Below the pieces are notes generated by a model that was not told where the DNA came from, did no database searches, and was given only the letters and a program-made list of their open reading frames with translations. A stretch of DNA of 35,012 nt from Patescibacteria group bacterium (GTDB lineage: Bacteria > Patescibacteriota > Microgenomatia > UBA8517). Where the stretch lies: the NCBI GenBank assembly GCA_022868165.1, contig JALHYA010000001.1, positions 76,937 through 111,948 on the forward strand. Reading direction: 5' to 3'. Made by a program: the position numbers and the translations under genes. Shown one piece after another: positions 3,922 to 11,541 of this stretch (positions are counted from its first letter, which is position 1; every line of letters starts with the position of its first letter).

Positions 3922-3969
3922 AGCTTTATTTTAATCCAAATGAACTTGGAAAGGTATCATACCTATAGT

Positions 3970-3998
3970 TTGACTTCGAGCTTTAGAAGTGCTATATT
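3970..3998 (+). promoter_or_regulatory. sigma70-like promoter TTGACT-17-TATATT with extended -10 (TGC)
   Basis: TTGACT 3970-3975, 17-nt spacer, TATATT 3993-3998; followed by hairpin GTCCC-ATTCG-GGGAC (4012-4026) in the leader. Confidence 0.7.
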
Positions 3999-4050
3999 TG
4001 TGCTCAGATTTGTCCCATTCGGGGACCACACATTAACAAGGGAGGAAATA

Positions 4051-4260
4051 ATGGATTACCGGAAGCTTTTACTGAATCTGGTATTCGTTCTTGGGGTGCT
4101 CATGGTGTTCTGGGTGTTTAGGCTCATTCTGCCAGAACTGGCAGCGAAGAAGCATGTGGCCGAAAACACGGTTATTCTCGTTTTCGCTTTCCTCGCTGGA
4201 AGCGCCGCTATTTACATTCTCGTCCAGCTCTATTTACACCCCGAGCGCTTTCTTAACTAG
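4051..4260 (+). CDS. Small two-TM membrane protein (69 aa)
   Basis: ATG preceded by AAGGGAGGAAATA Shine-Dalgarno; MDYRKLLLNLVFVLGVLMVFWVFRLILPELAAKKHVAENTVILVFAFLAGSAAIYILVQLYLHPERFLN. Confidence 0.7.
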   Translation: MDYRKLLLNLVFVLGVLMVFWVFRLILPELAAKKHVAENTVILVFAFLAGSAAIYILVQLYLHPERFLN

Positions 4261-4291
4261 CAGGGCATCGGCCTGAACCGAGGTGAAAACC

Positions 4292-4486
4292 ATGTTCGAC
4301 AAGGATGAGCGTACACCTAGCACACTTGAACTACTCAAGAAGGTCGAGGTGGAAATCCCAGACGAACTTTCGCCTTACTATCGCCGGAAGCGCAAGGGCT
4401 GTCATTCGCGCCCAAAGCCCAAGAAAGGCCAGAAGAAGCACCGCAAATCCGGATCCAAGAAGAAGGACACCCAGGCTACGGCCTGA
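4292..4486 (+). CDS. Small protein with highly basic C-terminus (64 aa)
   Basis: MFDKDERTPSTLELLKKVEVEIPDELSPYYRRKRKGCHSRPKPKKGQKKHRKSGSKKKDTQATA; CGAGGTG SD-like upstream. Confidence 0.55.
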   Translation: MFDKDERTPSTLELLKKVEVEIPDELSPYYRRKRKGCHSRPKPKKGQKKHRKSGSKKKDTQATA

Positions 4487-4500
4487 ACAAGGAGGAAGCA

Positions 4501-4683
4501 ATGGACCCACTGTCTCTAGGTGCTATGGGGGTAGCATTGACCGCTGTCGGTGGCTACACAGTAGGCTTTGCCTGGCCGATCGAGCGCACACGGGCTCGTC
4601 TGCTCATCGCCCTCGGCATTGTCATCATCGTACTCGGCTCTAGCTTCGTCCTCGCCCTCGTTATCATGGCTCAAGGAGGGTAA
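4501..4683 (+). CDS. Small two-TM membrane protein (60 aa)
   Basis: ATG preceded by AAGGAGGAAGCA SD; two hydrophobic helices. Confidence 0.65.
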   Translation: MDPLSLGAMGVALTAVGGYTVGFAWPIERTRARLLIALGIVIIVLGSSFVLALVIMAQGG

Positions 4684-4711
4684 GCCCGAGAAGCTAACAG
4701 TAAAAGGATTC

Positions 4712-4748
4712 GGCAGAGTCCTATCCCTAACAAGGGTCCTTCTCTGCC
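4712..4748 (+). terminator. Hairpin at end of the small-ORF operon
   Basis: GGCAGAG (4712-4718) ... CTCTGCC (4742-4748) with inner CCCT/AGGG; between convergent genes; no clear U-tract. Confidence 0.5.
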
Positions 4749-4752
4749 AGCA

Positions 4753-5694
4753 CTACCTACTAAATATCCCCGATACAAACCCCGACATAACTGCAAAATC
4801 GCTTACAAATTGCAAAATTATTCCCCACAACCCTACTTTCCAATCCTTAAATTCAACAGAAACTTTCCTAAAAGCCCAAAAAATATAAATTACCAATCCC
4901 AGCCATACGATAGGGAAAAGGGGAGTACTAAAAAAGTATATTATGAGGCCAATTCCCAATATATACCTGGCAAAGATTGATAATGCCTTAATATTGTGCG
5001 ACGAAAGGCCTTTTTTGGGAAACAACCATATTTTTGATTTTGCATCCCCACTGGCGTATTCGTAAATTTTCTTAGCAAACTCACCTAACAAGACCGGCAT
5101 CCCCCACTCCACCAGAGCACTTTTCACGCGTGCTAGCTTTGCTCCGACCTTGATTAACCTAAAATTGAAGCCTGTATCCTCTGCAGTTTTCACGCTATTT
5201 TCGGGGAATCCCCCAACCAGTTCCCAAATGTCTTTTCTAAAAGCAATCGAGCGTGTGGAAGGAAGAAAATTTATGTCGAATTTTGAAGGCAAAACGCCCA
5301 AAAACACACTGGAGGCTTTTTGAAATGCCGTATCCCCTACCATTCGATAGAAACCGGCTACAACATCCACTTCAGGATACTCAAAGGGTTCACTAATTTC
5401 CTGAAGCCAGTCTTTATGGGCAATGCAGCCAGCATCCGTCATGGCAATAATATCATTTTTGGCCAGCTCAATCGCCAAATTTCTGCCTTGAGCAATAGAG
5501 CATTTCTGCACCAAAAGCCTGATTCTCCCGTTTTTTTTCTGAAAATGCCGGATTATCTCAACCGTTTTATCGGTAGAGCCCCCATCCACAATCACAATCT
5601 CCTCGGGTTTTTTTGTCTGCCCCAAAAGCGCCTCCAAAAGTCCCCCAATACTCCCTTCTTCGTTCTTAACCGTCCCACAAACCGATACTTTCAT
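4753..5694 (-). CDS. GT2 glycosyltransferase with C-terminal TM segments
   Basis: MKVSVCGTVKNEEGSIGGLLEALLGQTKKPEEIVIVDGGSTDKTVEIIRHF. Confidence 0.88.
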   Translation of the reverse strand: MKVSVCGTVKNEEGSIGGLLEALLGQTKKPEEIVIVDGGSTDKTVEIIRHFQKKNGRIRLLVQKCSIAQGRNLAIELAKNDIIAMTDAGCIAHKDWLQEISEPFEYPEVDVVAGFYRMVGDTAFQKASSVFLGVLPSKFDINFLPSTRSIAFRKDIWELVGGFPENSVKTAEDTGFNFRLIKVGAKLARVKSALVEWGMPVLLGEFAKKIYEYASGDAKSKIWLFPKKGLSSHNIKALSIFARYILGIGLIIYFFSTPLFPIVWLGLVIYIFWAFRKVSVEFKDWKVGLWGIILQFVSDFAVMSGFVSGIFSR

Positions 5695-9368: not shown

Positions 9369-10085
9369 ATGAGCACAATTTCAGACAAGGCTATTGAGTT
9401 TGTCAAAAAAAGTAAAAAATTGTTTGTTAATAAGTTTGCCAGCTTAGATATTTACAGTCCTGTTAAAGACCCGATAACATTTTTCATGGCTGGAAGTCCA
9501 GGAGCTGGAAAAACAGAGTATTCCAAAGGTTTTATAGAAAACATCGAGACAGAGGAAAAGGGAGCAAGAATCGTGCGAATTGACCCTGATGAAACTCGAA
9601 AAATTATACCTGGGTATACAGGCGCAAACGCTTGGGAGATACAAGCGGCGGCCTCGTTAGCAATCGAGCCCATACTGGATCATGTTCTTCACAATAATTT
9701 AAACTTTGTTCTAGATGGAACTTTTTCTAACTACGTAAAAAGTAAAAGTAATATTGAGAGATGCATAAAACATAGTAGAAGGGTTGGTATCTATTATATC
9801 TACTTGAAACCAGAGGTTGCTTGGGCATTTACAATGCAAAGGGAAAAGCTTGATGGTAGACGTATACTTTTAGAAACATTTATAGAGGATTTCTTCTTGG
9901 CAAAAGACAGTGTTCAAAAAATCAAAGATGAGTACGGCGATAAAGTCCACCTATATTTGATCTTAAAAGATGACGCGGGTACGGTCAAAAAAACGTTGTT
10001 TGAGGTTGTCAAAATTGACAGTTATATCGATAAAAAGTACAATAATAAGGACCTTGAGGAGTTATTGAAGAAAGTCCAGATATGA
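9369..10085 (+). CDS. Zeta toxin-like P-loop kinase
   Basis: FFMAGSPGAGKTEYSKGF Walker A; RIDPDETRKIIPGYTG; VLDGTFSN; typical zeta-toxin-family layout. Confidence 0.85.
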   Translation: MSTISDKAIEFVKKSKKLFVNKFASLDIYSPVKDPITFFMAGSPGAGKTEYSKGFIENIETEEKGARIVRIDPDETRKIIPGYTGANAWEIQAAASLAIEPILDHVLHNNLNFVLDGTFSNYVKSKSNIERCIKHSRRVGIYYIYLKPEVAWAFTMQREKLDGRRILLETFIEDFFLAKDSVQKIKDEYGDKVHLYLILKDDAGTVKKTLFEVVKIDSYIDKKYNNKDLEELLKKVQI

Positions 10086-10249
10086 ATTTCCTAGACTTGA
10101 TTAGATTCGGCAAAAAAGACAACTTCACCAATTTTTTCGATTATCCTGCCGCGAAGAGAAAAAAAATAATTGTAAGATCAGCCAGAAGAGGGGCTGAATT
10201 ACAGTTGGCATTGGTGAAAAGATACGAGATGAAGTACGGAACTAAATAA
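10082..10249 (+). CDS. 55-aa basic protein translationally coupled (ATGA overlap) to the zeta-like kinase
   Basis: Not in the ORF track; MNFLDLIRFGKKDNFTNFFDYPAAKRKKIIVRSARRGAELQLALVKRYEMKYGTK*. Confidence 0.65.
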   Translation: MNFLDLIRFGKKDNFTNFFDYPAAKRKKIIVRSARRGAELQLALVKRYEMKYGTK

Positions 10250-10326
10250 CGTACTTTCTTGCGTTGCTTAACAACAATTTTCTTCAATTAAGTCTTACAA
10301 GCTAGATTGTGCGATGCCCGCCCTTT

Positions 10327-10357: not shown

Positions 10358-10390
10358 TGGAATTAAATCGGCGGGTGGAAAGAATTGGAG

Positions 10391-10471
10391 AAAAAGCTGG
10401 GGTGGGGAGAGGAAACGGGACACAAAATGGAATGAATCCAAATGTGTGCGTAACTTCGCCCCACCCTTTTT
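10391..10471 (-). terminator. Long-range stem with ~51-nt apical domain downstream of small membrane protein A
   Basis: GGGTGGGG (10400-10407) pairs with CCCCACCC (10459-10466), flanked by A5 and T5 runs. Confidence 0.5.
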
Positions 10472-10479
10472 CGAACCTT

Positions 10480-10695
10480 TCAGTGGCTGATCTTGTGATA
10501 GCTGGCGTTCGCCTTGAGCACCATAAGGGTAACGAAAACCCCCAACATGGCAAAGCTGATGGCAAATGCCGTGCCGAGCCGCACAAGCTGCCAGACGTCA
10601 TTGATGTCGACATCAAACCCGACCCAGCTGGCGAACAGCGTCCGAATGGCCAGAATGATGGCGACAAAAACGGGAACCCAGACAAGATCTTTCAT
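10480..10695 (-). CDS. Small two-TM membrane protein A (71 aa), paralogue of 11247-11462
   Basis: AAGGAGG SD; MKDLVWVPVFVAIILAIRTLFASWVGFDVDINDVWQLVRLGTAFAISFAMLGVFVTLMVLKANASYHKISH. Confidence 0.75.
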   Translation of the reverse strand: MKDLVWVPVFVAIILAIRTLFASWVGFDVDINDVWQLVRLGTAFAISFAMLGVFVTLMVLKANASYHKISH

Positions 10696-10708
10696 TGCAG
10701 GCCTCCTT

Positions 10709-10775
10709 AAGGTGCGAATTCCCTATTTAAGGGTAAAGGTATTCTAACATAGAAAAAATAGATATTCAACCTATA
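10709..10775 (-). repeat. 67-nt promoter/leader repeat, copy A (TTGAAT-17-TAGAAT)
   Basis: Same-length alignable copy at 11475-11541; -35 at 10764-10769, -10 at 10741-10746. Confidence 0.85.
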
Positions 10776-10801
10776 GTGGCTATAGATATTCTCCCCTATT
10801 T

Positions 10802-10810
10802 TGCTATAAT
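10802..10810 (+). promoter_or_regulatory. Extended -10 TGCTATAAT, 7 nt from ATG (leaderless geometry)
   Basis: TGCTATAAT then CTCCCAT then ATG at 10818. Confidence 0.55.
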
Positions 10811-10817
10811 CTCCCAT

Positions 10818-11147
10818 ATGTCCAAACAGGAAAGGGAGACATTCGAGCCGCAAGACCCCACGGCGGAGCTCTTTTGGGAAATAGATTTAAAACAGCTTAA
10901 TTCCCTTGTGGAAGGCTTGTTTAACTACAAAAATTTTCAAAGACTCCGAGAGGACCCTGGGGGCGCTCCCCTACCTTTTGATTTTGTTGCTTATTATCAG
11001 GAAACTTGCGAACAGATAGAGTATTACCTTTTTGTGGAAAAAACCGAGGAAAAGGGAAAATTTTACCTTACCGTCTCGCGCGGAGCTTCTCCTGTAATAA
11101 GAGATATCTTAGGAAGTAATCTACCGCCTGTCAGGTTTTCTTCTTAA
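10818..11147 (+). CDS. Hypothetical protein (start moved from GTG 10776 to ATG 10818)
   Basis: MSKQERETFEPQDPTAELFWEIDLKQLNSLVEGLFNYKNFQRL...; the longer ORF start lies upstream of the likely -10. Confidence 0.65.
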   Translation: MSKQERETFEPQDPTAELFWEIDLKQLNSLVEGLFNYKNFQRLREDPGGAPLPFDFVAYYQETCEQIEYYLFVEKTEEKGKFYLTVSRGASPVIRDILGSNLPPVRFSS

Positions 11148-11159
11148 ATGAAGAGATAG

Positions 11160-11231
11160 GGGATGGAGTGAACGGAAGCATGCTTGGAGGCAAGAAATGC
11201 CATCTAGGCACACAACCATCCACCCCATCCC
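11160..11231 (-). other. Long-range stem with 50-nt apical domain downstream of small membrane protein B
   Basis: GGGATGG (11160-11166) pairs with CCATCCC (11225-11231), GTG/CAC continues; inner hairpin CTTG-GAGG-CAAG. Confidence 0.45.
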
Positions 11232-11246
11232 TTGCCCGGGAGGCTC

Positions 11247-11462
11247 CTAGTTCTGGCTCCCAATCGCCTTCGAGATGACGGCAAAAGAGAAGCCGCCCAG
11301 CATGATCAGGCTGAGACCGAAGAAGAGACCGAGTTTGGCCAGCTGTTGGCCATTGTTGACGTCGATCACTTCGAAGTTCAGCCCGAGCGCCACGAACATC
11401 CATCGGATGATGGTGAGTATGGCGACAAGCGCCACAATCCAGAGAACGCTCCGCCGGAACAT
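11247..11462 (-). CDS. Small two-TM membrane protein B (71 aa), paralogue of 10480-10695
   Basis: GGGAGGTG SD; shares [VI]D[IV]N[DN]xxQL[VA][RK]LGxxFxxSxxMLGxF...KAxxS with protein A. Confidence 0.75.
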   Translation of the reverse strand: MFRRSVLWIVALVAILTIIRWMFVALGLNFEVIDVNNGQQLAKLGLFFGLSLIMLGGFSFAVISKAIGSQN

Positions 11463-11474
11463 CTTTCACCTCCC

Positions 11475-11541
11475 AAGGTGCGAATTCCCTGTTTAAGGGT
11501 AAGGGTATTCTAACACGGAAGAATCACTATTTCAACCTATA
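11475..11541 (-). repeat. 67-nt promoter/leader repeat, copy B (TTGAAA-17-TAGAAT)
   Basis: -35 at 11530-11535, -10 at 11507-11512; leader CCCTTAAACAGGGAATTCGCACCTT. Confidence 0.85.

Follow-up and report, generated by a model that had tools for sequence, protein, structure and literature searches.

Are two short reading frames on the minus strand of an ultra-small bacterium's genome, each lying behind a similar stretch of DNA, a duplicated gene whose control region has been kept, and if so, where did that gene come from? Such bacteria may interact with other cells through small membrane proteins restricted to their lineage, most of which annotation misses, and a promoter and leader conserved beyond the gene would be a rare visible regulatory trace in a lineage without genetics. 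The window, meaning the whole stretch of DNA analysed, comprises 35,012 nucleotides (bases 76937-111948 of contig 5) of an 821-kb genome in 25 contigs; the genomes of relatives span 0.4-1.5 Mb. Gene statistics were drawn from about 406 kb of stretches, homology searches covered the entire genome, and nine small contigs (L015, L017, L019, L020, L022, L026, L028, L029 and L031) were masked, being read as N. The genome lacks rpmD (L30) between S5 and L15; rpmD absence is a general trait of Patescibacteria (candidate phyla radiation). Together with the small size of this genome and of its relatives, this makes membership in that group very probable. An Rfam search of the window returned tRNA-Val as the sole match, leaving the leader described below without an Rfam family. 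Elsewhere in the genome, about five tRNA-like genes form a dense array almost without spacing (L030, G000:C19, 8610-9115, plus strand). The features of the locus, with the two genes named A and B, are collected in Table 1.

Table 1. Features of the paired locus, in window coordinates.
Feature	Coordinates	Strand	Evidence
Promoter and leader of A: -35 TTGAAT 10769-10764, extended -10 TGTTAGAAT ending 10741, leader to 10709	10709-10775	-	
Shine-Dalgarno of A, AAGGAGG, 5' of ATG	10702-10708	-	sequence
Gene A, 71-aa predicted two-helix membrane protein	10480-10695	-	homology, sense-frame constraint, AlphaFold, hydrophobicity
3' hairpin of A: GGGTGGGG/CCCCACCC, apex internally paired, then CAGCTTTTTC	10390-10472	-	-35.1 kcal/mol, z -4.9
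Unrelated 109-aa ORF between A and B; TATAAT 10805-10810	10818-11147	+	promoter scan, family search
3' hairpin of B: 16-bp basal stem, apex internally paired, without T tract	11160-11231	-	-50.4 kcal/mol, z -5.9
Gene B, paralogous 71-aa predicted two-helix membrane protein	11247-11462	-	homology, sense-frame constraint, hydrophobicity
Shine-Dalgarno of B, GGGAGGTG, 5' of ATG	11467-11474	-	sequence
Promoter and leader of B: -35 TTGAAA 11535-11530, extended -10 TGTTAGAAT ending 11507, leader to 11475	11475-11541	-	

A preliminary description of this DNA had proposed two related 71-aa minus-strand reading frames, each behind a 67-nt block that aligns without gaps, contains TTGAA[T/A]-17-TAGAAT and is at least as conserved as the coding sequence, and had read them as two copies of one cassette, in which a small membrane protein follows a conserved promoter and leader. 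Our analysis bears this out, coordinates and lengths included. The two proteins are 37% identical (BLASTP, single comparison, E 3e-10) and their coding DNA is 50.2% identical. As a null, the differences seen at each position of the codon were reshuffled along the gene. Identical residues numbered 25 of 67, against a null mean of 16.2 (4 of 20,000 simulations reach 25), and the BLOSUM sum was 126, against 32 for the null (no simulation of 20,000 reaches it), with the remaining five frames scoring at most 60. Thus, A and B are true protein-coding genes under protein-level selection, and on that ground we rejected a reading of the pair as non-coding RNA. The preliminary description had counted a lack of excess synonymous substitution between the copies against its proposal; that is not what we find, since protein-level selection is clear. 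For an orphan, the paralogs provide internal evidence of translation and selection. Each protein has two hydrophobic 19-aa peaks (KD 2.37 and 2.29, listed for A), and the AlphaFold model, also listed for A, has helices at residues 6-26 and 34-70 (mean pLDDT 73, pTM 0.40); together, these predictions indicate a helical hairpin. Positive ends and an acidic loop suggest an N-in/C-in topology.

Upstream of the genes, the 67-nt blocks are 84% identical, and the promoter scan places TG ahead of the -10 at both, giving an extended -10. The -35, the extended -10 and the transcribed leader are nearly invariant between A and B. The edge of homology is sharp: the next 60 nt upstream agree at 14 of 60 positions, which is the chance level, and the block of B starts at the stop codon of the gene upstream. 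The leader, about 33 nt long, reads ACC[T/C]TTACCCTTAAA[T/C]AGGGAATTCGCACCTT, and its local alignment between A and B scores 45, with no shuffle above 12. Neither copy folds more stably than its shuffles, and the fold in which GCACCTT may pair with the Shine-Dalgarno comes out best for A's leader and not for B's. We therefore rejected a structured leader, for which sequence identity would be the sole support, and the constraint on the leader appears to act at the level of sequence.

Downstream, each gene is followed by a hairpin much more stable than shuffles. That of B sits between B and the convergent ORF, where the plus strand also folds (-42.7, z -3.9). The two hairpins have a common form and unlike sequences, with no likeness beyond chance (229 of 500 shuffles match as well). 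With its GCTTTTTC tail, the hairpin of A may be a terminator. An integron gene cassette was rejected on reading the sequence, as no attC core GTTRRRY adjoins either hairpin. Two earlier proposals survive here in part. The stems had been thought to enclose apical domains of about 50 nt; stable hairpins are present, with paired apices, so that each is one long interrupted hairpin. The RNA ends had been called conserved, and this is true in sequence of the 5' end and not of the 3' hairpins.

The same description had envisaged a dispersed family, with further copies in related genomes. Whether searched by protein, profile, DNA or covariance model, the genome holds exactly two copies, which lie 0.77 kb from each other. 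We found no relatives of A or B in 50 family, 57 order, 374 class and 380 phylum-drawn genomes (overlapping samples), or in GTDB contigs, IMG/VR, phages (tblastn) and plasmids, collections that may omit records very near the window's genome, so that close relatives could carry the family. Pfam, NCBIfam and PHROGs returned only noise, PDB sequences held no relatives, and titles and abstracts in the literature gave no paper on such a small-membrane-protein family. The leader, searched as a DNA pattern, by blastn and with a covariance model, has no third copy in its own genome, the phylum sample, IMG/VR or GTDB contigs. Dispersal is thus not borne out, and the lack of copies in the related genomes sampled is an outcome that had been set down beforehand as counting against the proposal. 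Of the profile matches in phylum genomes with E 0.002-0.01, the best falls on a single hydrophobic segment of a SecE-like 68-aa ORF and was put down to chance. In the stretch that holds it (L033, genome G361, 310-1040), small ORFs at 490-756 and 775-927, followed by a terminator, adjoin rplU-secE-nusG; the pair is bracketed by near-identical CACCTCGGGTATTACACCTCGTAGGTGTAGGAGC repeats and resembles a repeat-flanked insertion.

Among the 50 family genomes, the 109-aa ORF that separates A from B is present only in the window's genome. It has an extended -10 promoter (10783-10818, plus strand) whose expected start falls nearly at the ATG, which suggests a leaderless mRNA. Convergent with A lies a zeta-toxin-family kinase gene (9369-10085, plus strand; PF06414, E 2e-32) that overlaps a 55-aa ORF (10082-10249). 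Further away, another GC-rich small operon (3960-4760, plus strand) has its own promoter, TTGACT...TATATT, and encodes three proteins, of 69 aa (two-helix; 4051-4260), 64 aa (basic; 4292-4486) and 60 aa (membrane; 4501-4683), before ending with a GGCAGAG/CTCTGCC stem. We compared its two-helix gene with A and B as a candidate relative and found it unrelated.

The composition of the pair is also unusual. GC3 is 0.72 in A and 0.81 in B, against 0.43 +/- 0.065 in 183 long genes (z 3.4 and 4.3 once sampling error is allowed for, in genes of only 72 codons). Other GC3-rich genes in the genome include an Flp pilin, named by its Pfam match, and genes that we take, by reading, to be TadG/TadE-like and MTH1187-like. 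Two adjacent Flp pilin genes lie at 9902-10042 and 10135-10281 (L025, G000:C14, minus strand; GC3 0.81 and 0.69), and are matched in just 2 more of the 50 family genomes. A TadG/TadE-like gene pair (L012, G000:C1, 3529-5030, plus strand; GC3 0.67 and 0.75) stands amid genes of ordinary composition. Judged by composition alone, the A/B gene was probably acquired from a GC-richer source; searches found no donor or outside relative. We favor acquisition because GC3 deviates, ordinary translational selection fails to account for it, and the other GC3-rich genes include Flp pilins, which are patchy in the family, besides TadE-like genes.

If A and B were instead native and highly expressed, their GC3 would reflect selection for translation or mRNA stability and not foreign origin. 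The GC3-rich genes do include Flp pilins, which are expected to be abundant. However, GC3 in ribosomal-protein, EF-G and RNA polymerase genes is only 0.33-0.50, because of which we rejected codon bias from ordinary high expression, and a class of small GC3-rich membrane genes of like strength is absent from five sampled family genomes; a native origin thus seems rather unlikely to us. A different objection concerns the 5' blocks, which recent gene conversion might have homogenized without selection. The excess of block identity over that of the coding DNA (84% against 50%) and the sharp upstream edge would suit such an event, but conversion should leave uniform likeness, and 9 of the 11 mismatches fall within the 15-nt spacer between the -35 and the extended -10, while 50 of the 52 remaining positions match (Fisher p 5e-6). 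This mosaic, with the spacer diverged and the promoter elements and leader kept, is the pattern that selection leaves and a recent conversion tract does not, and we regard conversion as highly improbable.

A and B could also be small and hydrophobic in the manner of holins or type I toxins, in which case an antisense or small RNA would target the leader. Their size of 71 aa, their two hydrophobic peaks, a leader better conserved than the coding region and the nearby zeta-toxin-family gene are all in keeping with this. Yet a consensus promoter scan, which cannot exclude an antisense promoter, found no promoter-like plus-strand site for such a transcript opposite the leaders or genes, and the plus-strand sites at 10750-10810 face away, toward the ORF at 10818. 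PHROG matches are only noise, phage relatives are lacking, and no phage genes were seen adjoining the pair. On balance, we judge a holin or toxin role improbable.

Collectively, we consider it fairly probable that the locus stems from a small membrane-protein gene, restricted to the lineage and probably acquired, which was anciently duplicated, with one strong promoter-leader kept. In this model of acquisition and duplication, this gene, encoding a small membrane protein of helical-hairpin form and probably derived from a GC-richer source, would have come under a strong, AT-rich promoter of the sigma-70 type, whose leader of about 33 nt is fixed. Duplication would have taken place long ago, the proteins diverging to 37% identity while promoter and leader were kept almost unchanged. 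A and B are likely strongly transcribed and, because promoter and leader stayed near-constant as the proteins diverged, likely alike in control. High expression is plausible in view of the extended -10, the strong Shine-Dalgarno and the stable 3' hairpin, and the hairpins would serve in mRNA protection or termination. As for function, we infer that A and B insert as N-in/C-in hairpins and, in the envelope, probably assemble into a homo- or hetero-oligomer. The leader would have a sequence-specific role. It is quite unlikely, though conceivable, that it is a trans-recognized regulatory element, constant while the coding sequence diverged, that governs how much is made of two paralogous hairpin proteins of the envelope, specific to one lineage of ultra-small bacteria.

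Several known systems share features with this locus. Class II holins are proteins of 65-95 aa with two helices and an N-in/C-in topology, and A and B resemble them in length, in having two predicted helices and in the topology that their charges suggest. Unlike class II holins, A and B have no match to PHROGs or phage sequence, no lysis genes seen nearby and two separately promoted copies, and comparison with the holin family profiles of Pfam, NCBIfam and PHROGs gave no match above noise. In the Ldr/Rdl-type loci of E. coli, which encode type I toxins and are duplicated, small hydrophobic protein genes are repeated together with non-coding DNA, as here, whereas A and B show no antisense promoter-like site in the scan, are longer and are far more diverged from each other. 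Flp/Tad pilins (PF04964) are likewise small proteins of the membrane; in this genome their genes are GC3-rich, and two of them lie close together on a different contig. However, the GQGLVEYAL-type motif belongs to Flp pilins; A and B match neither PF04964 nor PF04021 (class III signal peptide), and the genome's own Flp pilin matches PF04964 with E 4e-6, just under the curated cut-off. As a duplicated, lineage-specific small membrane protein, the pair is of a known kind; what is unusual is a leader conserved far beyond the gene that it precedes.
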